64,000 nt of DNA from positions 1 to 64,000 of the forward strand of contig CAMYLZ010000025.1 of assembly GCA_947259375.1 (NCBI GenBank). The letters are read 5' to 3'. Shown in pieces: positions 16,789 to 35,681 of the stretch. Below the pieces are notes generated by a model that was not told the DNA's origin, did no database searches, and saw nothing but the letters and a program-made list of their open reading frames with translations. The position numbers and the translations under genes are program-made. This DNA is from an uncultured Parvularculaceae bacterium. GTDB taxonomy: Bacteria > Pseudomonadota > Alphaproteobacteria > Caulobacterales > Parvularculaceae. Every line of letters starts with the position of its first letter. Position 1 is the stretch's first letter.

Positions 16789-16796
16789 CGATGTTA

Positions 16797-16920
16797 ACTC
16801 ATCAAGACCAGTCGAGGGATAGGCCCGTTGACGCTGGGGCAACCGCCGAAAAAGCCGGACCGGCTTTTGGGAAAGGTGCCAATTCCTGCGAGCGAGCTTT
16901 GCCTCTCTCGAGAGATGAGT
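16797..16920 (+). ncRNA. SAM-I type (S-box) riboswitch aptamer upstream of metX
   Basis: P1 ACTCATC (16797-16803) / GATGAGT (16914-16920); core 'gaGGGAtaGGCCCgtTGAcGCtgGGGCAACC' and 'AAAGGTGCCAATTCCTGC' match the SAM-I consensus; followed by met genes. Confidence 0.9.
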
Positions 16921-16981
16921 CGGACGACGAATAGCGAGTGCGCGTCCGATTTGGTCTCTAGCGAATTTCCGAAAATGAGTT

Positions 16982-17007
16982 GGCCCCGCATGGCGGGGCT
17001 TTGGTTT
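16982..17007 (+). terminator. Intrinsic terminator / expression platform of the SAM riboswitch
   Basis: GGCCCCGC-AT-GGCGGGGC-like hairpin followed by TTTGGTTTT, between the aptamer and the metX ATG. Confidence 0.65.
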
Positions 17008-17031
17008 TGGAACGGACGCAAGAGATCGGCG

Positions 17032-18027
17032 ATGACCAGCGCGCAAATTGAAATAGACGAGGCGGGCCAGCCCAAGACGGTGCTCTATTGCGAGGTGAGC
17101 GTCTTTCTGCCTGCCGAGATTATGCTCGACAGCGGCGAGACGCTCGCCAAGCCGGAGCTTAATGTCAGATTTTATGGCGACCTGACCCAACCTGCCGTGG
17201 CTGTCGCCGGCGGCGTTTCGGCCGGGCGGGTCATTGCCGATACCAGCAGCGACAAGGGCTGGTGGCGCGACATTGCACGGCCCGGCGGCGCCATCGATCT
17301 CGATAATTATTGCGTTATCGGTTTTGACTTTCTGCCCAATCCCGGCGAAGCAGCGCGGACCATCTCGACCGCGGATCAGGCGCGTGCTTTTGCTTACGCG
17401 CTTGAAACAATCGGCGTTTTAGAACTTTACGCTTTTGTCGGCGCCTCCTATGGCGGCATGGTTGCCTTGCGCTTCGCAGAACTGTTCCCGGAGCGGATTA
17501 AAAAATTATGCGTGGTTTCCGCGCCGGAACGTTCCCATCCGGCGGCGACCGCCCAGCGCGGCGTGCAGCGGCGGATCATCGCGCTTGCCGCGCGTTGCGG
17601 CGCAGAGAAGGAAGGCGTCTCGCTCGCTCGCCAACTCGCCATGATTTCCTACCGTACGCCGGAAGAATTTGAGCAGCGCTTTGACGCCGCGCCCGTGGGC
17701 GAGGCGACGGGCGACCCATACGATATTTGCGAATATCTCATCGCCCGAGGCGAAGCCTATGAGGTTTGCGCCGACCGATACCTGACCTTGTCCGATTCCA
17801 TTGACCGCCATCGCGCCGATCCGGCGAAGATCGGCGCGGAAACGCTGGTCATCGCCGCCGAAGGCGACCGCCTGGCGCCGGCGAGCGACCTTAAACGGCT
17901 GGCCGCTGCGCTGAAGCGCGGGCGCTATGCCGAAATTCCATCCAATTACGGCCATGACGCATTCCTGAAGGAAGCTGACCGGCTCGGCCCCCATATTCGT
18001 GAATTCCTCAAGGAGCTGCAGTCATGA
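17032..18027 (+). CDS. metX: Homoserine O-acyltransferase, MetX-type alpha/beta hydrolase (acetyl versus succinyl specificity not determined)
   Basis: VGASYGGMVALRFAELFPERI nucleophile elbow, PSNYGHDAFLKE C-terminal His; start MTSAQIEIDE placed after the riboswitch. Confidence 0.85.
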   Translation: MTSAQIEIDEAGQPKTVLYCEVSVFLPAEIMLDSGETLAKPELNVRFYGDLTQPAVAVAGGVSAGRVIADTSSDKGWWRDIARPGGAIDLDNYCVIGFDFLPNPGEAARTISTADQARAFAYALETIGVLELYAFVGASYGGMVALRFAELFPERIKKLCVVSAPERSHPAATAQRGVQRRIIALAARCGAEKEGVSLARQLAMISYRTPEEFEQRFDAAPVGEATGDPYDICEYLIARGEAYEVCADRYLTLSDSIDRHRADPAKIGAETLVIAAEGDRLAPASDLKRLAAALKRGRYAEIPSNYGHDAFLKEADRLGPHIREFLKELQS

Positions 18028-19232
18028 GTGAAACACTCCGCACTGAAACGATTATCGCCGGCGCCGGCGTTGCGGAAGACCCTGCCTTTAACGCGGTCTC
18101 GCCGCCGCTGCACCTTTCGGCGAATTACGGTTGGAATGATCCGCTCGACAAGCCGCAATATGACTATGCGCGCTCCGGCAATCCGACGCGTACGCAGCTT
18201 GAGACGGCGCTGGCAAAGCTAGAAGGCGGCGCGCGCGGCATTGTCGTTTCTTCCGGCATGGCGGCGCTGGATCTTGTGTTCAACCTTGTTGATCCGGGCG
18301 AGCTGGTGATTGCGCCGCATGATTGTTACGGCGGCACGCACCGGCTGTTGACTGCGCGCGCCAAGCGGGGACATTTCGAGCTCGCGTTTGTAAACCAGAC
18401 CGATCCGGTCGCGTTGGCGAAGGCCTTCTCGCGCAATCCAAAGCTGGTGCTGATCGAAACGCCGTCGAACCCGCTCTTGCGCATTACCGATATTCGCGCC
18501 GTCGTGGCATTCGCGCGGGAATGCGGCGCCATCACGGTCGCCGACAACACGTTCTTGTCGCCGGCGCTGCAACGCCCGCTTTCGCTCGGCTGCGACGTGG
18601 TGGTGCATTCGACGACGAAATTCATCAATGGCCATTCGGACGTGGTCGGCGGCGCGGTTATCGCAAAAGATGCGGCGCTGGGCGAAGAGCTCGCCTGGTG
18701 GGCGAATTGCACCGGCGTCACCGGCGCGCCGTTTGATTCCTTCCTGACTTTGCGGGGGCTGCGCACGCTGTTCCCGCGTATCGAGCGCCAGCAGAAAACC
18801 ACGAGCGATGTCGTTGCGGCGCTGGCCGCGGATGAGCGTGTCGCGAGGGTATTCTATCCGGGACTTGAAGATCATCCGGGCCATGAAATTGCGAAAACGC
18901 AACAGGACGGCTTCGGCGCCATGTTCAGCGTCGAGTTTGCCGAAGGCGTCGATGTGATTGAGCTGCTGCGGAACTTACGCATTTTTACCATTGCGGAGTC
19001 GCTTGGGGGCTTTGAAAGCCTTGTATGCACGCCTGCGACCATGACCCATGCGGCGATGACGCCGGAGGCGCGTGAGACAGCGGGTATTTCCGACCGGTTG
19101 GTCAGGTTCTCGGTCGGTCTTGAGCATACGGATGATCTCTTGCGAGATATTTCGCATGGGCTCGAGCATGCGGCGCAAAGCGCCGCGAATGTAGCGTATC
19201 TGTCAAAAGGGGCGGCTAGCCAATGTGCCTGA
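18024..19232 (+). CDS. metB: Trans-sulfuration enzyme, cystathionine gamma-synthase family
   Basis: YDYARSGNPTRTQLETALAKLEGG, HSTTKFINGHSDVVGG (PLP lysine), ESLGGFESLVCTPATMTHA; 4-nt overlap with metX. Confidence 0.88.
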   Translation: MSETLRTETIIAGAGVAEDPAFNAVSPPLHLSANYGWNDPLDKPQYDYARSGNPTRTQLETALAKLEGGARGIVVSSGMAALDLVFNLVDPGELVIAPHDCYGGTHRLLTARAKRGHFELAFVNQTDPVALAKAFSRNPKLVLIETPSNPLLRITDIRAVVAFARECGAITVADNTFLSPALQRPLSLGCDVVVHSTTKFINGHSDVVGGAVIAKDAALGEELAWWANCTGVTGAPFDSFLTLRGLRTLFPRIERQQKTTSDVVAALAADERVARVFYPGLEDHPGHEIAKTQQDGFGAMFSVEFAEGVDVIELLRNLRIFTIAESLGGFESLVCTPATMTHAAMTPEARETAGISDRLVRFSVGLEHTDDLLRDISHGLEHAAQSAANVAYLSKGAASQCA

Positions 19233-24491: not shown

Positions 24492-25184
24492 TTACTGCGT
24501 TGGGGGAATGTCGAGCGCCGCGAGGACGCGGGCGGTCATCGCCTCGCAATCGGCGCCGGCAAAGGCGATGGTTCCGTCCAGCAATGTGCGCATGTCAGGC
24601 GAGAGTGCGTCGCGCAACCGGCGCCGCGCGCGCAGCAGCCGGGTCTTGATTACCGCTTCGCTTACCTCCAGCGCCTGTGCTGTATCGCGAACCGACATGC
24701 ATTCTATCTCGCGCAAAATGAAGACGGTTCGATATTCGTCCGGCAAATCGGCGATAGCGGCGGTTAGCAGGCGTGATAGTTCCTTACGGGCGAGGCTGGT
24801 TTCGGGCGTTATCCCCGCGGTCTGGGCGAAACGCGCCTTATACTCATCCAACATTGCGACATCCTGCTCCAGCAATTCCGTCCTTCTTCTCTCCGCCGCA
24901 CGTTTGCGATCAAGCGCGGCGTTGATGACGATACGCGTCAGCCAGGTTGACAGGCTTGAAGCGCCTTCGAACCGGTCTAGTGAGCGGAACGCTTTGAGAT
25001 AGGCTTCCTGCACCACATCCTCCGCATCCGCATTATTGCGGAGGACGCCCCAAGCGGCGCGAAACAACCGCTGATTATTGCGCGTGGTGATGAGCCTGAT
25101 CGCTGCAGGGTCGCGGCCGGCGGCCTCGCGCGCAAGCACGACATCGCTGACAGATTCAAGATTGAGCTTGTGGCGCATCGTCAA
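24492..25184 (-). CDS. ECF-type RNA polymerase sigma factor
   Basis: Region 2 GVLRNNADAEDVVQEAYLKAFRSLDRFEGASSLSTWLTRIVINAALD; region 4 LPDEYRTVFILREIECMSVRDTAQALEVSEAVIKTRLLRARRRL. Confidence 0.92.
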   Translation of the reverse strand: MTMRHKLNLESVSDVVLAREAAGRDPAAIRLITTRNNQRLFRAAWGVLRNNADAEDVVQEAYLKAFRSLDRFEGASSLSTWLTRIVINAALDRKRAAERRRTELLEQDVAMLDEYKARFAQTAGITPETSLARKELSRLLTAAIADLPDEYRTVFILREIECMSVRDTAQALEVSEAVIKTRLLRARRRLRDALSPDMRTLLDGTIAFAGADCEAMTARVLAALDIPPTQ

Positions 25185-25526
25185 AACGTCCTTTCAGCCA
25201 GATAGACGCCGGCAAATGTAAATGGTTACAGGCGGGGACAATAATGCCGCCGCGCCGTTTGTGCTTGCTGATGGGCGCGCACGCTGCATCGCGTGGGAGG
25301 AAGGTTGGGTGCATCGCAACGTGGGCTGTTTGGCGCGGCGCAGGAGATTTTCCAAAGTTGGAGGGTGCGTTCAATATTATAGCATAAAATACCACAAGTA
25401 GCGCACGGGCGCGAGAGACACGCATAAAACATAAAAAAACCGATAGTTTTTGCTTGTTTGTTTGCGCGGGCGCGTTGTAAGCGTGGTTTCGGCGTTGCAG
25501 CAAAAGCGCCGCTCGGGATACGCGCC

Positions 25527-25688
25527 ATGTTTGGGCTGAAGGAATTGGGATTGATTGCGGACAGCGTGGCTTTGGCTGCGAATCCGTTGTTTTCGTCTTT
25601 GCCGGCTATGTCGGTAAGCCTTTTGCTCGTGGTCGTGGTGCTCCTTATTAGCCCCTCCGGGGGAGCGGCCATGGAGCCCGCGCGCTAG
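25527..25688 (+). CDS. Putative ilv leader peptide (alternative internal ATG at 25608 gives a 26-aa peptide)
   Basis: ...MSVSLLLVVVVLLISPSGGAAMEPAR*: run of Leu/Val/Ile codons immediately before attenuator hairpins and ilvD. Confidence 0.8.
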   Translation: MFGLKELGLIADSVALAANPLFSSLPAMSVSLLLVVVVLLISPSGGAAMEPAR

Positions 25689-25741
25689 TTTAGCAGCACG
25701 GATCTTCAGACGCCCGCTCCCGACAGGAAGCGGGTTTTTTT
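25652..25741 (+). promoter_or_regulatory. Transcription attenuator for the ilv operon (competing 1:2, 2:3 and 3:4 RNA helices)
   Basis: 1:2 CCCC(25652-25655)/GGGG(25659-25662); 2:3 GGGAGCGG(25661-25668)/CCGCTCCC(25714-25721); 3:4 terminator CCCGCTCC...GGAAGCGGG + TTTTTTT (25713-25741). Confidence 0.8.
25713..25741 (+). terminator. Rho-independent attenuator terminator upstream of ilvD
   Basis: CCCGCTCC-CGACA-GGAAGCGGG (one bulged A) followed by seven T. Confidence 0.88.
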
Positions 25742-25771
25742 ATGTCTGATGGTCCGTTTGAGGATGAACGG

Positions 25772-27481
25772 ATGAGTGACGAAAGACAAAAGCGATCTGA
25801 TGCGATCACCAAGGGGGCGGCGCGTGCGCCAGCGCGCGCCATGCTGCGCGCCGCCGGGCTCGACGATAAGGATTTCACCCAGCCTCTTGTGGCGGTGGTC
25901 AATACCTGGTCGACGGTGACGCCGTGCAACATGCATCTCGACAAGCTCGCCGAACCGGTGCGCGAAGGCGTGCGTCAGGGCGGCGCGACGCCGATAGATT
26001 TCAACACGATTGTTGTTTCCGACGGAGTCACCATGGGCGGCGAGGGGATGCGCGCCTCACTGATCTCGCGCGAGGTGATCGCCGATTCAATCGAACTCGC
26101 CGTACGCGGACATTCGCTTGACGCCGCCATCATTCTTGTCGGCTGCGACAAGACATTGCCCGCTGCCGCTATGGCGCTGGCGCGTATGGATATTCCCGGC
26201 GTGATTTTCTACGGCGGCACGATCCTGCCTGGGCATTGTAATATTCGCGGCGCAGAAAAAGACCTGTCCATTCAGGACGTGTTTGAGGCGGTTGGCGCGC
26301 ACGCCAAGGGCGCAATGAGCGATGCGGAGCTTGACAAGATCGAGCGTGCGGCCTGTCCCGGCGCAGGGGCTTGCGGCGGGCAATTCACGGCGAACACAAT
26401 GGCGATGGCGCTGGCGTTTTTGGGGCTCGCGCCCATGGGCGCAGGCGATCCGCCTGCGGTCGACGGTCAAAAAGCAGCGGAAGCTGCGCGCTGCGGTGCG
26501 CTGGCTGCAAAGCTTGCTCATGACGGCAAGACAGCGCGCGAATTCGTCACCGAGGCGAGCCTTGAAAATGCGGCGACCTCGGTGGTCGCCAGCGGCGGAT
26601 CGACCAATGCGGTCCTGCATCTGGCGGCCATTGCAGCAGAGGCCGGCGTTCCGTTCTCCATTGATATTTTCGACGCGCTTTCGCGCGCAACGCCGGTTAT
26701 CCTCGACATCAAACCGGGCGGGCGTTTTCTGGCGAAAGATCTGTATGACGCTGGCGGCGCGCGGCTGTTCGGCAAGAGGTTGATGGACGGTGGGGCGCTT
26801 CGCGATGCGCCGACTGTCAGCGGCGCCAGTCTTTTTGAAGAGCTGACAAAAGCGGAAGAAACGCCGAGTCAGCAAATCATTCGCACCATGAACGATCCGG
26901 TAAAAAAGACTGGAGGCTTGCGCATTCTATATGGCGACGTTGCGCCTGAAGGCGCCGTGCTGAAAACCGCCGGATATTCAAACGGCGCTTTCGAAGGGCC
27001 GGCGCGGATTTTCGACAGCGAGGAAGCGGCGTTCAAGGCCGTCTCCGAGCGCGCGATCAAGGAAGGCGACGTCGTCGTCATTCGTTATGAAGGCCCGAAA
27101 GGCGGGCCCGGCATGCGCGAAATGTTGTCGGTAACGGCGGCGCTCGCCGGACAGGGCCTTGCCGGCAAGGTCGCATTGATGACTGATGGCCGGTTTTCCG
27201 GTGCGAGCCACGGTTTTGTTATTGGCCATATAGCGCCCGAAGCGGCGGTTGGCGGGCCGATTGCGTTGCTTGAAGAAGGCGACTTGATCTGCATCGACGC
27301 CGAAGCGCGCCGCATCGACGCGGATATCGATTGGGGGACGCGCAGGGCGTTTTACGCGCCGCGCCGGCTAAAGCGCATGGGCGGCGCCTTCGACAAATTC
27401 GCAGCGCTTGTTTCTTCGGCGTCGAAAGGCGCCGTCACCATCCAATCATTGAATGACCAAGGCGAAGGAATGACGACATGA
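25772..27481 (+). CDS. ilvD: Dihydroxy-acid dehydratase
   Basis: [60 protein letters not shown]. The ATG at 25742 overlaps the terminator T-tract, so 25772 is preferred. Confidence 0.96.
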
Positions 27482-28488
27482 AAGTCTATACGCAAGACGA
27501 TGCAAGCCCGGAACTGGTGAAATCAGCGCCGGTCGCTGTCATTGGCTATGGCAGTCAGGGGCGAGCCCATGCGCTGAACCTTAAAAATGCCGGATGCGAC
27601 GTCGTTGTCGGCGTGCGCGAGGGCGGGCCGGGCGCGCGCCGCGCCGCCGAAGACGGGCTCGAAGTCGCCTCCGTCGCCAGGGCCTGTACAGGCGCGACGC
27701 TGATCGCGATCCTGACGCCGGATATGACGCATGAGAAAATATTCAACGAAGAGATCGCGCCATATCTGGAACCGGGCGACGCCTTGTTGTTCGCTCACGG
27801 GTTTACAGTGCTTTACGGCCGGGTGAATCCGCCGAAAGAGGTCGATGTCATCATGGTTGCGCCGAAAGGGCCGGGCGATCTCGTGCGTCGCGAATTTGAG
27901 CGCGGGCGCGGGGTGCCGTGCCTGTTCGCGGTGCATCAGGACGCCAGCGGAAAGGCGAAGGAAAGGGCGCTCGCATACGCCAGCCTGATCGGCGGCGCGA
28001 CCGCCGGCGCGATTGAAACAACATTCAGGGAAGAGACCGAAACCGACCTCTTTGGCGAGCAAGCGGTTTTGTGCGGCGGCGCTTCGGAACTCGTCATCGC
28101 CGGTTTTGAAACATTGGTCGAAGCCGGCTACCAGCCGGAAATCGCCTATTATGAATGCCTGCATGAGCTAAAGCTGATCGTTGATCTCTTTTATGAGGGC
28201 GGCATCACGCGCATGCATGACTTCATCTCTGAAACCGCAAAATATGGCGATTTTGTTTCGGGTCCGCGGGTCATAAACGCCGAAACCAAAGAACGCATGC
28301 GCGAGGTTCTCAAAGATATCCAGAGCGGTTCCTTCGCTCGAGAATGGATTTTGGAAAATCAGGCGGGCAAGCCGCGATATAGTCAGATGTTGGCCGCTGA
28401 TCTGGGTCATCCGATCGAGAAAACGGGCAAGGAGTTGCGCGCCCGGATGCCGTGGCTGAAGCCCGGCGCCAACGCCCGGGAAGCGTGA
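27478..28488 (+). CDS. ilvC: Ketol-acid reductoisomerase
   Basis: [77 protein letters not shown]. Confidence 0.96.
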
Positions 28489-28497
28489 GCGTCACTC

Positions 28498-30291
28498 ATG
28501 AGTTCACCCGCCGCCATGCAATCAATCGCCTCCGAGCCGATCTCGAAGCCCGGCGCGTACTTGCTGCTCGATGCGCTGGAGGAACAGGGCGTTGAGGTAA
28601 TTTTCGGCTATCCCGGCGGCGCTGTGCTGCCGATCTATGATGCGCTTTATGAGCGCGAGACCATCCGCCATGTGCTGATGCGTCATGAACAGGGCGCGTT
28701 GCATGCGGCCGAAGGCTATGCGCGCTCTACAGGCAAGGTCGGTGTAGCGCTGGTGACGTCCGGCCCTGGCGCCACCAATGCGGTCACCGGCCTTGCCGAT
28801 GCGCTCCTGGACTCAATCCCGGTGGTCTGCATTACCGGGCAGGTGGCGCGGCCCCTGATCGGCACGGATGCATTTCAGGAATGCGACACGACCGGTATAA
28901 CCCGTTCGTGCACGAAGCATAATTATCTGGTTGAGTCGGCGCGCTCGCTTTCCGGTACGGTGCATGAGGCGTTTCATGTGGCGCGGCGGGGCCGGCCCGG
29001 CCCGGTGCTGATCGACATTCCAAAGGATATTCAGTTCGAAACCGCCCCCTATACGAACCGCGCGGCGGCGAGCAATCGAAATTGCATTGTCCTGCCGGAA
29101 ATCGACCATGCGACGATCGAGCAAGTCGTTGATCTGATGCGTTATGCGCGCCGACCGGTATTTTACACAGGCGGCGGCGTCATCAATGCGGGGCCGGCGG
29201 CGTGCGCGGCCTTGCGCCAGCTCGCGAGCGTCACCGGGTTTCCGGTAACGTCGACTTTGATGGGCCTTGGCGCGTATCCCGCTTCCGACCCGCAATGGCT
29301 GGGCATGCTCGGCATGCATGGGTCATTCGAGGCCAATAACGCCATGCATGATTGCGATTTGATGATCGCTATCGGCGCGCGGTTCGATGACCGCGTGACG
29401 GGCCGGCTCGACGCCTTCTCGCCCAATTCACGCAAAGTGCATATTGATATTGATCCGTCTTCCATCAACAAGAATGTCGCGGTGGATATCGGCATTGTCG
29501 GCCATGCGGGCGAGGTGATGGATGCGATGTTAGCTGCGTGGGCGGCGCGCGAAGCCGGAGAGCCGCATGACAGCGCGCGGCTCGCGCCATGGTGGAAACA
29601 ACTCCATGGCTGGCGTGCGAAAAAGTCGTTTGACTATGCGCCGAGCAAGAAACGCATCAAGCCGCAACATGCGATTGAACGGCTTTACGCGCTGACGCGC
29701 GGGAAGGACGTTTATGTATCGACTGAAGTCGGCCAGCACCAGATGTGGGCCGCGCAATATTTCCATTTCGACGAGCCGAACCGCTGGATGACGTCCGGCG
29801 GGCTCGGGACCATGGGTTACGGCTTGCCGGCGGCGCTCGGCGTGCAGGCTGCGCATCCGGACGCGCTAGTGATCGACATTGCCGGCGACGCCTCGGTGCA
29901 GATGACGATGCAGGAATTTTCAGCCGCCGTGCAGCATGGGTTGCCGATCAAGATCTTTATTCTGAACAATGCCTATCTCGGCATGGTGCGCCAATGGCAG
30001 GAGCTTTTGCATGGCGGACGCTATTCGCATTCCTATTCTGAAAGCCTGCCGGATTTCGTCAAGCTCGCCGAAGCTTTTGGCGGCCTCGGCCTGCGCGCGG
30101 AAAGCCCCGTGGAACTTGACGCGAAAATCATGGAGATGATCGACAGCGACAAGCCGGTGCTGTTCGACTGCGTCGTCACCCAGGAAGAAAACGTCTTTCC
30201 CATGATCCCGTCCGGTGCGGCGCATAATGAAATGCTGTTTGGCGAAGTCAGGGGCGATGAAGTCAGCGACGCCGGAAAGGTGCTGGTATGA
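28498..30291 (+). CDS. ilvB: Acetolactate synthase large subunit
   Basis: GVEVIFGYPGGAVLPIYDAL, MRHEQGALHAAEGYARSTGKVGVALVTSGPGATN, TSGGLGTMGYGLPAALGVQ, GDASVQM. Confidence 0.96.
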   Translation: MSSPAAMQSIASEPISKPGAYLLLDALEEQGVEVIFGYPGGAVLPIYDALYERETIRHVLMRHEQGALHAAEGYARSTGKVGVALVTSGPGATNAVTGLADALLDSIPVVCITGQVARPLIGTDAFQECDTTGITRSCTKHNYLVESARSLSGTVHEAFHVARRGRPGPVLIDIPKDIQFETAPYTNRAAASNRNCIVLPEIDHATIEQVVDLMRYARRPVFYTGGGVINAGPAACAALRQLASVTGFPVTSTLMGLGAYPASDPQWLGMLGMHGSFEANNAMHDCDLMIAIGARFDDRVTGRLDAFSPNSRKVHIDIDPSSINKNVAVDIGIVGHAGEVMDAMLAAWAAREAGEPHDSARLAPWWKQLHGWRAKKSFDYAPSKKRIKPQHAIERLYALTRGKDVYVSTEVGQHQMWAAQYFHFDEPNRWMTSGGLGTMGYGLPAALGVQAAHPDALVIDIAGDASVQMTMQEFSAAVQHGLPIKIFILNNAYLGMVRQWQELLHGGRYSHSYSESLPDFVKLAEAFGGLGLRAESPVELDAKIMEMIDSDKPVLFDCVVTQEENVFPMIPSGAAHNEMLFGEVRGDEVSDAGKVLV

Positions 30292-30842
30292 ACGCCGCTA
30301 ATCCGACATTGCAATCGGTCTATCCGGTCACCGGCGATGAGGGGGCGGTGCGCGAGGTCATTCTCGCCGTCATCGTCGATAATGAGCCGGGGGTTCTTTC
30401 GCGTGTCGTCGGACTGATTTCCGCGCGCGGCTACAATATCGAAAGCCTCACCGTGGCTGAAACCGATATGGAAAAGCACACCTCGCGCATCACTGTGGTA
30501 ACGCAAGGAACGCCTGCGAAAATCGAACAGATCAAGGCGCAATTAGGCCGGCTGGTGCCGGTGCGGCGCGTCATTGATGTCAGCGCAGAGAGCGATGCGC
30601 TCGAACGCGAACTCGCCCTTGTTAAAGTCGTCGCCACCGGCGAGCACCGGCTCGAAGCCATGCGTGTTTCAGGGATATTTCGCGCCCGGGCGCTTGATAC
30701 AACGCAAACGTCCTTTGTGTTCGAGGTGACGGGCGCACGCGATAAAATCAACGCCTTTATTGAATTGATGAAGCCGCTCGGGCTGACCGAAGTCTCCCGC
30801 ACGGGCGTGTTGTCAATCCGGCGCGGCGTTGAGAGGGACTGA
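30288..30842 (+). CDS. ilvN: Acetolactate synthase small subunit
   Basis: ILAVIVDNEPGVLSRVVGLISARGYNIESLTVAETD ACT domain; 4-nt overlap with the large subunit gene. Confidence 0.95.
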   Translation: MNAANPTLQSVYPVTGDEGAVREVILAVIVDNEPGVLSRVVGLISARGYNIESLTVAETDMEKHTSRITVVTQGTPAKIEQIKAQLGRLVPVRRVIDVSAESDALERELALVKVVATGEHRLEAMRVSGIFRARALDTTQTSFVFEVTGARDKINAFIELMKPLGLTEVSRTGVLSIRRGVERD

Positions 30843-30843
30843 A

Positions 30844-30999
30844 ATGCGGGCCATCGCCAGAACAGCAAGGACTTTAGCATCACGCAATCTGGAGCGCTTT
30901 CGCATCGTCAAATGCTGCGCATTTGCGCGTCGGGAATGCGCTCAGGCTTTTCATGGGCGTTTGCGAAACCTTCGCCTGCTCCTTAGCCCCGCGCGGTGA
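30844..30999 (+). CDS. Putative leu leader peptide (51 aa, ending LRNLRLLLSPAR*)
   Basis: Short ORF between ilvN and leuA with 5 Leu codons in the last 12 codons; its stop lies inside a strong hairpin. Confidence 0.45.
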   Translation: MRAIARTARTLASRNLERFRIVKCCAFARRECAQAFHGRLRNLRLLLSPAR

Positions 31000-31010
31000 A
31001 ATCACCGCGC
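30991..31010 (+). promoter_or_regulatory. Hairpin at the leu leader stop codon
   Basis: GCGCGGTG-AAAT-CACCGCGC perfect 8-bp stem; no clear U-tract downstream. Confidence 0.55.
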
Positions 31011-31054
31011 GCAACAAATGGGCTGATCAGGAACAGAATTGAAGGATTTGAGAC

Positions 31055-32644
31055 GTGATAACCGAACAACCCGACATTGGCGACGTAGCCGCGAACAACC
31101 ATGTTAAAATTTTTGATACGACGCTGAGAGACGGCGAGCAGGCGCCGGGATTTTCCATGTCGACTGACGCAAAGCTGATTGTTGCGCGCGCGCTCTCGGC
31201 GTTGAATGTCGATATTATCGAGGCCGGATTCGCTGCCGCCTCGCCGGGCGATGCTGCCGCCATCGCAACAATCGCGCGAGAGATTGAAGGGCCGACCATC
31301 GGCTCGTTGGCGCGGCTCAACAAAGGCGACATCGAGGCGGCGGCTCGTGCAATTGAGCCGGCGAAGAAAAAACGCATCCACACTTTTATTGGCACAAGCC
31401 CCTTGCATCGAGAGGCCAAGCTGAAAATGTCGAAGGATGAAATCCTCAGAGCCATCTCTGAGAATGTCGCCTTTGCCCGCGCGGCTTGTAACGATGTGGA
31501 GTTCTCACCGGAAGACGCAATCCGCACCGAGCGTGCCTATCTGATCGAAGCGGTGGAGGCGGCGATTGAAGCCGGCGCATCGACCATCAACATCCCTGAC
31601 ACCGTCGGATATACGACGCCGGAAGAGATTACTGCTTTGTTCCGTTTCCTGACGGAAAACGCCAAAGGCGCCGACGGGGTAACGTTTTCCGCACATTGCC
31701 ATGACGATCTCGGCATGGCGGTGGCGAATTCGCTTGCCGCCGTGCGCGGCGGCGCCCGGCAAGTCGAATGCGCGATTAACGGCATTGGCGAGAGAGCCGG
31801 TAATTGTTCCATGGAAGAAGCGGTGATGGCGCTGGCGACGCGGCGCGACTTTTTTGGCGTGACGACGCAAATCGATACGACGAAAATCTATCCGGCGAGC
31901 CTCGCGCTTGCCCGCGTCACTCACAATCCTATCCCGCGCAACAAGGCGATTGTCGGGCGCAACGCCTTCGCTCATGAAGCCGGCATTCACCAGCACGGCG
32001 TGCTTGCGGACAAACGCACCTATGAAATCATGGATGCAGAAGCGGTCGGCATGCCGTCGAATTCCATCGTGCTTGGCAAACATTCCGGCAAGCACGCTGT
32101 CGCCGCACGGGTGAAAGCGCTGGGCTTCAAAGTTTCAAGGCAGAAGATCGAGGATATTTTTCCGGCGTTCAAACGCCTTGCCGACACTTGCCGCGAAGTC
32201 ACCGATGCGGGGCTGGTGCGCCTCATCACCGGCAATGCGGAAACGGACGGGCGCATTGGCCCATGGCGAATGCGCAAAACGGAATTGCATGTGGATTTTG
32301 AAGGCGACAAGCGCCCTCATGCGCGGATCACCATGGAGCATGATACAGGCGCACGCCGCTCTGTCATCGAAGAAGGCGAAGGTCCGATTGATGCGGCTTT
32401 CGCAGCGGTTTGTGCAATTGCGAACGTGCCGGGGCATATCCACACGCTAGATCTCAATCACATAGCGGCGGAGGGCGTCGTGCGCGCCGAGGCGGTCGTT
32501 GAGGTGGAAGGCAAGCACTATTCCGGCAAGGCGCAGGAGGTCGATATCGCCGATGCTGCCGTTGCGGCCTTTGTGGCGGCGGTGAACCAGGCCGCCGCGA
32601 TCCGCGCGGGCGCCGGCATGATCGAGGAAAAGGCCGCATCATGA
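31055..32644 (+). CDS. leuA: 2-isopropylmalate synthase
   Basis: [70 protein letters not shown]. Confidence 0.96.
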
Positions 32645-34062
32645 GTATGCCGAAATCATTGTTCGATAAATTATGGGAACGCCATGTAGTGGTCGGCGAG
32701 ACCCCGGATGCGCCGGCGGTGCTTTATATCGACCTGCATCTTGTCCACGAAGTGACGTCGCCGCAGGCCTTTGCAGTGCTTGACGGGCGCGGACTGAAGG
32801 TCCGGCGGCCTGACAATACATTTGCTACGCTTGATCATTCGACGCCGACGCTGCCGGCAAACGCCAAGGGCGAGCTGCCTTTTTCAACGCCGGGAGCGCG
32901 GCGCCAAGTCGAAACGCTTATCGCCAATTGCGAAAAACACGGCATAGAGTTGTTGGGCCTTGGCGATCCGCGACGCGGCATTGTTCACGTGATTGGGCCG
33001 GAGCTGGGGCTGACCCAACCAGGTAAGACAGTCGTCTGCGGGGATAGCCATACATCGACACATGGCGCCTTTGGCGCGCTTGCCTTCGGCATCGGCACGA
33101 CCGAAGTCGGTCATGTGCTGGCGACGCAATGCGTCCTGCAGCGCAAGCCAAAATCCATGCGCGTCATTTTTGACGGCGCGTTATCGCCGGGCGTCGGCGC
33201 GAAGGATATGGCGCTGGCGATGATTGCAGAAATCGGCGCCGATGGCGGGCAAGGCTATGCGATTGAGTTCGCCGGCGAGACGGTGCGCGCGCTTTCCATG
33301 GAGGGGCGCATGACATTGTGCAATATGTCGATTGAGGCGGGCGCGCGCTTCGGCATGATTGCGCCGGACGAGACAACCTTTGACTGGGTGAAGGGCCGCG
33401 ATTTCGCGCCGTCGGGCGAGGCGTGGGCCGCGGCGCTCGCAAAGTGGCGCGGCCTGGCGACAGAAGAGCGCGCGGAGTTCGCAAAAGAAGTGCGCATTGA
33501 TGCTTCAACGATCCGTCCAATGATCACCTATGGCGTATCGCCGGACGCGGCTGCGCCGGTCTGCGCCAATGCGCCGGCGCCGCGAACGGCAGCGGAAAAA
33601 CATGCGGCGGACTACATGAAGCTCGATGCGGGCCGACCGTTTACAGAGCAAGAAGTCAATCGCGTCTTTATCGGCAGTTGCACCAATTCGCGGCTTTCTG
33701 ACCTGCGCGAAGCGGCGGCGGTGATGCGCGGGCGGCATGTGGACGAGGGCGTTGTCGCACTGGTCGTGCCAGGCTCCGAGGCGGTGAAACGTGCGGCTGA
33801 AGCGGAAGGGCTTGATGCGGTGTTTGTCGCTGCCGGCGCCGAATGGCGCGAACCGGGCTGTTCCATGTGCATCGCCATGAATGGCGATGCGGGCGCGCCG
33901 GGAGAACTGGTTGTTTCCACCTCAAACCGAAATTTTATTGGCCGCCAGGGCAAGGGCGTCAGGACCGTACTCGCCAGTCCGGCGACCGCTGCGGCTTCGG
34001 CGATTGCGGGGCGCATCGCCGACCCGCGTCCCTTTCTGTGCGACATGAAGGAGGACGCTTAA
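32641..34062 (+). CDS. leuC: 3-isopropylmalate dehydratase large subunit
   Basis: [61 protein letters not shown]. Confidence 0.96.
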
Positions 34063-34644
34063 ATGGCATTCGAACCGTTTAAAACGCTTGTCTCGCGGAC
34101 GGTGGTGTTGGCGCAAGACAATATCGACACCGATCAAATTATCCCGGCACGGTTTTTAACGACCACGTCCCGCGACGGGCTCGGCCAGTCGGTCTTTTAT
34201 GACTGGCGCTTTGATGAAGCTGGACGACCGAAAAGACCGTCGCTTTTCAACGACTATAATCCCGATACGCATAAAATTCTGGTGGCGGGATCGAATTTCG
34301 GCTGCGGATCGTCGCGCGAACATGCGCCATGGGCGCTTTATGGATTTGGATTTCGGGCGGTCATTAGTTCGGACATTGCCGACATCTTCAAAAGCAACGC
34401 GCTAAAAAACGGCTTACTGCCGGTGGAGGTTGATCAAACGGCCCATGCACAGTTGCTGACAACGCCTGATGCGGAGATCGCTGTAGACCTTGAAAAACTC
34501 ACGGTGACCCTGGGCGAGGCGGATATTGCGCATTTCGAAGTGGAAGCCTTTGCGCGCCAGTGCCTGCTCAATGGCGTTGACCCTTTAGGCTATTTACTGA
34601 AACAGACGCGCGAAATCGCGGCCTATGAGGCGAAAACAGCATGA
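34063..34644 (+). CDS. leuD: 3-isopropylmalate dehydratase small subunit
   Basis: NIDTDQIIPARFL, ILVAGSNFGCGSSREHAPWAL. Confidence 0.96.
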   Translation: MAFEPFKTLVSRTVVLAQDNIDTDQIIPARFLTTTSRDGLGQSVFYDWRFDEAGRPKRPSLFNDYNPDTHKILVAGSNFGCGSSREHAPWALYGFGFRAVISSDIADIFKSNALKNGLLPVEVDQTAHAQLLTTPDAEIAVDLEKLTVTLGEADIAHFEVEAFARQCLLNGVDPLGYLLKQTREIAAYEAKTA

Positions 34645-35681
34645 CAAAAAGAATTGTGCTTCTCGCCGGCGATGGCGTCGGTCCGGAAGTCGTCGTTGCC
34701 GCGCGCAAAGTGCTGGCCGCCGCCGCAGAGAAATTTGCGCTGTCGCTGGAATATGATGACCGCCTGTTCGGCGGTGCGGCCATTGATGCGACAGGCAATC
34801 CATTCCCGGCGGAGACAAAGGCCGCCTGCCTCAAGGCGGATGCGGTTTTTCTGGGCGCTGTCGGCGGGCCGAAATGGGATAGCGGCGCTCTACGCCCGGA
34901 GGCCGGCCTGTTGGCGTTGCGTAAAGCGCTTGGCGTTTACGCCAATTTGCGGCCGGTCAGCGTTGCGGCGGGCATGGAGCATCTCTCGCCGCTGACCCCG
35001 GACCGCGCCAAGAGCGTCGACCTTCTTATCATTCGTGAGCTGACGGGCGGGATGTATTTCGGAAAGCGCGACGAAGGCGATGAGACCGCGCGCGACGAAT
35101 GTCTCTACACGAGGGATGAGGTTACCCGCGTTGCGCGTATTGCCTTTGAAACGGCAAGGAAACGGCGTGGGCGCGTCGCCTCCATTGACAAGGCGAATGT
35201 GCTGGCGACCAGTCGGTTATGGCGGGCCGCCGTCAATGCGCTGCATGCGGCGGAATTTAGGGATGTTGAGCTCTCTCATGTGCTGGTCGACGCCATGGCC
35301 ATGAGACTTATTCAACAGCCTGCGGCCTTCGATGTGATCCTGACCGAAAATCTCTTTGGCGACATTCTGAGCGACGAGGCATCTGTGTTGTCAGGCTCGA
35401 TCGGTCTTGCACCATCGGCGTCGCTGGGCGAGGGGCCGCGCGGCCTTTACGAGCCTATTCACGGATCGGCGCCGGATATAGCGGGACAGGACAAAGCCAA
35501 TCCGGTGGGCGCGATCCTCAGCGCGGCGATGATGTTGCGTTATAGCCTTGATGCGGGCGCCGCCGCGGATGCGATTGACAAGGCGGTGTCAATAGCGCTT
35601 GGCGATGCCCGCGGTACGGTTGATATCGGCGGGCCGGATTCGACCGCATCTTTCGCCGAAGCGATCGCCGCGTTGGTTTGA
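34641..35681 (+). CDS. leuB: 3-isopropylmalate dehydrogenase
   Basis: IVLLAGDGVGPEVV, LTGGMYFGKRDE, DVILTENLFGDILSDEASVLSGSIGLAPSASLG, YEPIHGSAPDIAGQ. Confidence 0.96.
   Translation: MTKRIVLLAGDGVGPEVVVAARKVLAAAAEKFALSLEYDDRLFGGAAIDATGNPFPAETKAACLKADAVFLGAVGGPKWDSGALRPEAGLLALRKALGVYANLRPVSVAAGMEHLSPLTPDRAKSVDLLIIRELTGGMYFGKRDEGDETARDECLYTRDEVTRVARIAFETARKRRGRVASIDKANVLATSRLWRAAVNALHAAEFRDVELSHVLVDAMAMRLIQQPAAFDVILTENLFGDILSDEASVLSGSIGLAPSASLGEGPRGLYEPIHGSAPDIAGQDKANPVGAILSAAMMLRYSLDAGAAADAIDKAVSIALGDARGTVDIGGPDSTASFAEAIAALV

Follow-up and report, generated by a model that had tools for sequence, protein, structure and literature searches.

A probable ribosome-mediated attenuator ahead of the branched-chain amino acid biosynthesis genes in an uncultured Parvularculaceae bacterium

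The ilvGMEDA, ilvBN, leu and trp attenuators of Escherichia coli share a leader peptide with control codons, four RNA segments numbered 1 to 4, and a terminator with a T run. The comparative prediction of classical attenuators of proteobacterial amino acid operons by Vitreschak and others (2004, FEMS Microbiol Lett 234:357; cited in PMC1262725) reportedly includes the ilv operons of Xanthomonadales. The element described here resembles the E. coli attenuators in its segments 1 to 4, in the T-run terminator and in a stop codon placed shortly after segment 2, and differs from them in sequence, in the operon it precedes and in the absence of an Rfam match. None of the 4227 Rfam families matched the locus at the gathering threshold, and the relaxed threshold gave only a chance-level match (E 2) on the opposite strand. 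Attenuators of the same kind in E. coli operons are mentioned in PMC1183508. Within the same order, an attenuator is known for ilvBN of Caulobacter crescentus (PMC4117421, citing Tarleton, Malakooti and Ely 1994). The C. crescentus element, like the present one, has a leader open reading frame (ORF), there with tandem Ile/Val codons, and a Rho-independent terminator before an operon for branched-chain amino acids (BCAA); it differs in standing before ilvBN, whereas the present element stands before ilvD at the head of ilvDCBN-leuACDB and has mixed, Leu-rich codons.

This kind of attenuator is already known and classical, and the present element is a further example. In the literature searched, from which most subscription journals were absent, no paper describes such an attenuator for the ilvD operons of Parvularculaceae. 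The ilvD motif WRC-18-2 also occurs ahead of ilvD, in some cases together with a terminator, and is described as a weak riboswitch candidate restricted to Veillonella (PMC8632094); we rejected it as a relative of the present element because nothing ties the Veillonella motif to this leader.

In the window, i.e. the whole 64,000-nucleotide stretch of DNA analysed, the run ilvD-ilvC-ilvB-ilvN-leuA-leuC-leuD-leuB (25742-35681, counting the longest ilvD ORF) covers the whole BCAA pathway, with the steps common to valine and isoleucine and the leucine branch. The named close relatives of the source organism are Parvularcula, Marinicaulis and Aquisalinus, which places its genome among the Parvularculaceae of the Caulobacterales. 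The features of the control region and of the genes that follow it are these:

25527-25688, + strand: leader peptide ORF MFGLKELGLIADSVALAANPLFSSLPAMSVSLLLVVVVLLISPSGGAAMEPAR, from ATG 25527 to TAG 25686-25688, 53 codons plus the stop
25620-25649, + strand: run of ten successive control codons by the codon list, Leu3 Val4 Leu2 Ile1
25641-25655, + strand: segment 1, CTCCTTATTAGCCCC, which includes the last three control codons (CTC CTT ATT) and pairs with the segment 2 region
25659-25676, + strand: segment 2, GGGGGAGCGGCCATGGAG, with core GGGAGCGG at 25661-25668; its alternative partners are segment 1 and segment 3
25672-25687, + strand: 5' strand of the antiterminator's apical extension, overlapping the leader stop codon (from folds and relatives)
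25691-25708, + strand: 3' strand of the apical extension, with the conserved consensus AGCAnCACGGACCTCCA (from folds and relatives)
25713-25721, + strand: segment 3, CCCGCTCCC, with core CCGCTCCC at 25714-25721; 3' arm of the antiterminator and 5' arm of the terminator
25726-25734, + strand: segment 4, GGAAGCGGG, 3' arm of the terminator (from the terminator fold)
25735-25741, + strand: terminator T run of seven T, read directly; nearly all relatives have a T run in this position
25772-27481, + strand: ilvD, encoding dihydroxy-acid dehydratase and heading the run, above the cut-off of NF002068
27478-35681, + strand: ilvC, ilvB, ilvN, leuA, leuC, leuD and leuB, downstream of ilvD on the same strand

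With 212 bp separating ilvN from leuA, a single transcript across ilvDCBN-leuACDB is an inference; reading of that gap by eye (30842-31055) revealed no second attenuator. The longest ilvD ORF begins at ATG 25742, which abuts the terminator T run, too close for a ribosome-binding site to fit in between, so that ATG 25772 is the more likely start. The latter is preceded by GAGG at 25760-25763, and the ilvD similarity of relatives mostly begins several residues into the 25742 version, near 25772. On the other side, the neighbour is a divergent sigma factor gene (24492-25184, minus strand), so there is no annotated upstream gene on the plus strand for the terminator to end. A consensus promoter scan found nothing, and a simple consensus terminator scan did not report this terminator, the stem of which has a bulged A. 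Elsewhere in the window, a SAM-I (S box) riboswitch was detected on the plus strand at 16796-16921 (79 bits); by eye, the ORFs at 16828-18027 and 18024-19232 downstream resemble a homoserine O-acyltransferase and a PLP enzyme of Cys/Met metabolism, respectively.

The control codons read CTT TTG CTC GTG GTC GTG GTG CTC CTT ATT, and the 12-residue stretch around them, with 11 of 12 residues Ile, Leu or Val (I/L/V), is the densest that any of the six frames of the window contains. A point against the attenuator reading is the lack of a strong Shine-Dalgarno sequence at the leader start codon; translation could alternatively begin at TTG 25551, which has AAGGAA ahead of it. Among relatives, leaders begin with ATG or GTG 44-49 codons ahead of the same stop, these starts align with ATG 25527 of the window, and leader frame, length and stop position are preserved. 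Codon choice in the leader region is skewed relative to ilvD: CTC and CTT make up 77% of Leu codons (vs 44%), GTA 23% of Val codons (vs 4%) and ATT 79% of Ile codons (vs 35%, with only 14 Ile codons to count). Such a bias fits the theory in which sensitivity depends on the choice of codons (PMC1183508), and pairing constraints could account for part of it.

The preliminary description, made from this sequence, placed upstream of ilvD a leader rich in Leu, Val and Ile codons and four mutually exclusive segments, among them a second strand able to pair over 8 bp with the 5' arm of a strong terminator ending in seven T. Every one of these elements is where it was said to be: the ten codons precede BCAA genes and are kept in relatives, the identity of ilvD is borne out by its NF002068 match, GGGAGCGG (25661-25668) pairs with CCGCTCCC (25714-25721) over 8 bp, and the terminator hairpin (25712-25741) reaches -15.4 kcal/mol with a z of -3.9 as a single sequence. 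Segment 3 is common to the antiterminator (2:3) and the terminator (3:4), which makes the two mutually exclusive. Two structures turned out larger than described. The CCCC/GGGG hairpin is present as 1:2, but CUCC 25641-25644, within the control codons, also pairs with GGAG 25673-25676 and enlarges it; the antiterminator is likewise present but longer than 8 bp, in that the last leader codons and the stop (25672-25687) pair with 25691-25708. The GGAG thus has two alternative partners, one in the 1:2 hairpin and one in the apical helix, and the leader stop codon sits within that helix.

Single-sequence folding gave the antiterminator (25660-25720) -28.0 kcal/mol with a z of -2.2, significant as is that of the terminator, and the 1:2 hairpin -12.8 kcal/mol but a z of -0.1, so that its energy is not unusual. 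As calculated, the antiterminator state (-31.3 kcal/mol) and the termination state of 1:2 plus 3:4 (-28.2 kcal/mol) are predicted to be near in energy, as a switch requires. The 2:3 duplex taken in the window alone was not significant (z -0.9, p 0.15), and the complementarity could be due to chance there because the stretch is so G+C-rich. With neither 1:2 nor 2:3 significant in this one sequence, the case must be comparative.

Within the genus, a covariance model of the element matched directly upstream of ilvD at E 1e-12 or better in all 23 genomes whose close ilvD is intact at its 5' end. Nine of the weak matches of the model elsewhere in the genomes of relatives were read; two are leaders before ilvC, and the others looked like ordinary terminators. 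In an alignment of 26 sequences spanning the whole control region, the codons CTC CTT ATT AGC CCC and the tail GGAGCGGCCATGGAGCCCGCGCGC are near-invariant, synonymous sites included, and the N-terminal half of the leader is variable. Across 15 pooled pairs, the last 17 leader codons have a pS of 0.14 and the N-terminal part one of 0.27; such a halving is as expected of a coding stretch that doubles as structured RNA. In the same 26 relatives, paired cells amount to 97.6% for the 2:3 helix and 94.7% for the terminator, but shuffles come near on most measures; the values are 89% and 97% for the 1:2 pairs and 79% for the apical extension. Since the helices are nearly invariant, RNAalifold found almost no covariation in the genus alignment, and wider clades were therefore used. 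The difference between own and permuted partners of leader and segment 3 was not significant within the genus.

Two further observations concern the genus. In same-genus relatives (for example L011, L013 and L016), a conserved palindrome, TTAGCA-N5-TGCTAA, precedes the leader stop by about 280-310 nt; it lies upstream of the leader promoter region and is absent in other clades. At least 10 of its 12 half-site positions are present in 17 of 26 loci, a result reached in 1% of shuffles; the copy in the window, at about 25379-25395, is degenerate (8/12). It may be a putative operator for some regulator of the operon. Separately, two same-genus genomes, G020 (given as 100% complete) and G004, have no ilvD match, and G005 has distant matches only; the pathway has possibly been lost or replaced.

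The wider comparison used ilvD loci fetched by name. An I/L/V-rich leader, a G+C-rich hairpin and a T run precede ilvD in nearly all other Caulobacterales loci examined, including those of Brevundimonas, Robiginitomaculum, Maricaulis and Hyphomonadaceae, and in most Xanthomonadales loci (Lysobacter, Luteimonas, Dokdonella). The sequence differs across clades and the anatomy is retained: the I/L/V run is conserved in about 90 ilvD loci, and 53 of 82 loci have the segment 2 core starting 25 nt ahead of the leader stop, with nearly all others having it 10-26 nt ahead. Against shuffles, the 2:3 duplex has a median z of -2.3, with p <= 0.05 in 60 of 91 loci. The core pairing in most Xanthomonadales joins GGCGCGG or AGCGCGG with CCGCGCC, and in some GGTGCGG or AGTGCGG with CCGCACC; across loci, the fourth core pair is A-U in 51 cases, C-G in 9, G-U in 8 and U-A in 3. 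Leader arms paired with their own segment 3 average -19.1 kcal/mol vs -17.2 kcal/mol for permuted partners, a value matched by none of 2000 permutations. Taken alone, the other Caulobacterales gave 0 of 5000, and the Xanthomonadales alone were not significant. The covariation in relatives that the preliminary description had put forward as a check is thus seen across clades but hardly at all within the genus.

In two relatives with an operon headed by ilvC (L117, L118), a similar leader and terminator stand ahead of that gene; the element thus keeps to the operon head. Four Xanthomonadales loci of Dyella, Tahibacter and Luteibacter (L105, L107, L108, L110) have no leader or T run before ilvD, and in at least two of these the stretch before ilvD reads by eye as the end of another gene, taken for leuB. 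In an ilvD relative from another family of the same order (L030), a leader-like ORF ends in SLLLLRP, with Leu as the sole repeated control codon, and is followed by GGGAGCGG and then by the terminator CCCGCTCC; it may represent a leucine-only version of this attenuator.

The conservation upstream of ilvD of the leader run, of the exclusive 1:2, 2:3 and 3:4 pairings and of the terminator argues that the BCAA biosynthesis genes are under ribosome-mediated transcription attenuation, a reading to which we assign a probability of roughly 93% on these sequence comparisons. An ordinary small hydrophobic membrane protein as the product of the leader ORF, with a terminator that just ends its mRNA, is very improbable. 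The run is indeed hydrophobic and the ORF is under moderate purifying selection, with a pooled pN/pS of 0.64 in its N-terminal part, but that N-terminus diverges freely where the I/L/V run, the stop position and the RNA pairings are retained. The ORF, moreover, has no Pfam match above cut-off, it stays at the head of BCAA operons, including those that start with ilvC, and terminator and leader arms co-vary across clades, none of which favours such a protein.

A switch independent of the leader, in which a metabolite riboswitch or an RNA-binding protein picks between 2:3 and 3:4, has the same very small probability. In favour of such a switch, the long antiterminator folds strongly (-28 to -31 kcal/mol), and no ribosome is needed to sequester segment 3. 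Yet no Rfam family was found at the locus at either threshold, the codon run is the sole evident conserved leader element upstream of segment 1, and it corresponds to the very amino acids made by the downstream genes. The least probable of the three alternatives is a constitutive partial terminator that does not respond to amino acids and sets only basal operon expression; it would leave the conserved control codons and the alternative pairings unexplained. What speaks for it is the ilvB leader of Streptomyces coelicolor, in which replacement of comparable codons had no effect (PMC1262725), a result that also calls for caution as a point against the attenuator reading here.

Under the attenuator reading, the stalling mechanism set out in the preliminary description is very likely right, as judged from the arrangement of codons and pairings and from what is established about attenuation. 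A shortage of charged Leu-, Val- or Ile-tRNA would stall the leading ribosome near the end of the run, with Val-Val-Leu-Leu-Ile (25635-25649) as the best site; it would mask segment 1 and free segment 2, so that the long antiterminator, made up of 2:3 and the apical helix, could form and let RNA polymerase read through into ilvD. The last five codons should matter most, since a ribosome stalled at the beginning of the run would not cover segment 1. When amino acids are plentiful, the ribosome would reach the stop codon at 25686, inside the apical helix, a location that suits disturbance of segment 2 and the antiterminator by a terminating ribosome; the antiterminator would be blocked there and the 3:4 terminator would form. 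If the leader were not translated, 1:2 would form first and also permit termination.

The trp leader peptide of Sinorhizobium is reported to act in trans (PMC7298713). By analogy, the present leader peptide, the C-terminus of which (GAAMEPAR) is conserved, might also act in trans on other genes, or the short RNA left by termination might do so; we consider this quite improbable, and the conservation of the C-terminus is already accounted for by the RNA pairing.

One attenuator design tracks the operon head in Caulobacterales and Xanthomonadales, despite the lack of a matching Rfam model; the genus alignment and covariance model could seed an Rfam family, and the leader peptide could join gene sets. 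For a little-studied alphaproteobacterial family, these results annotate clearly how a complete BCAA gene set is probably regulated; the predicted switch would very probably restrict the synthesis of the BCAA enzymes to shortage of leucine, valine or isoleucine.
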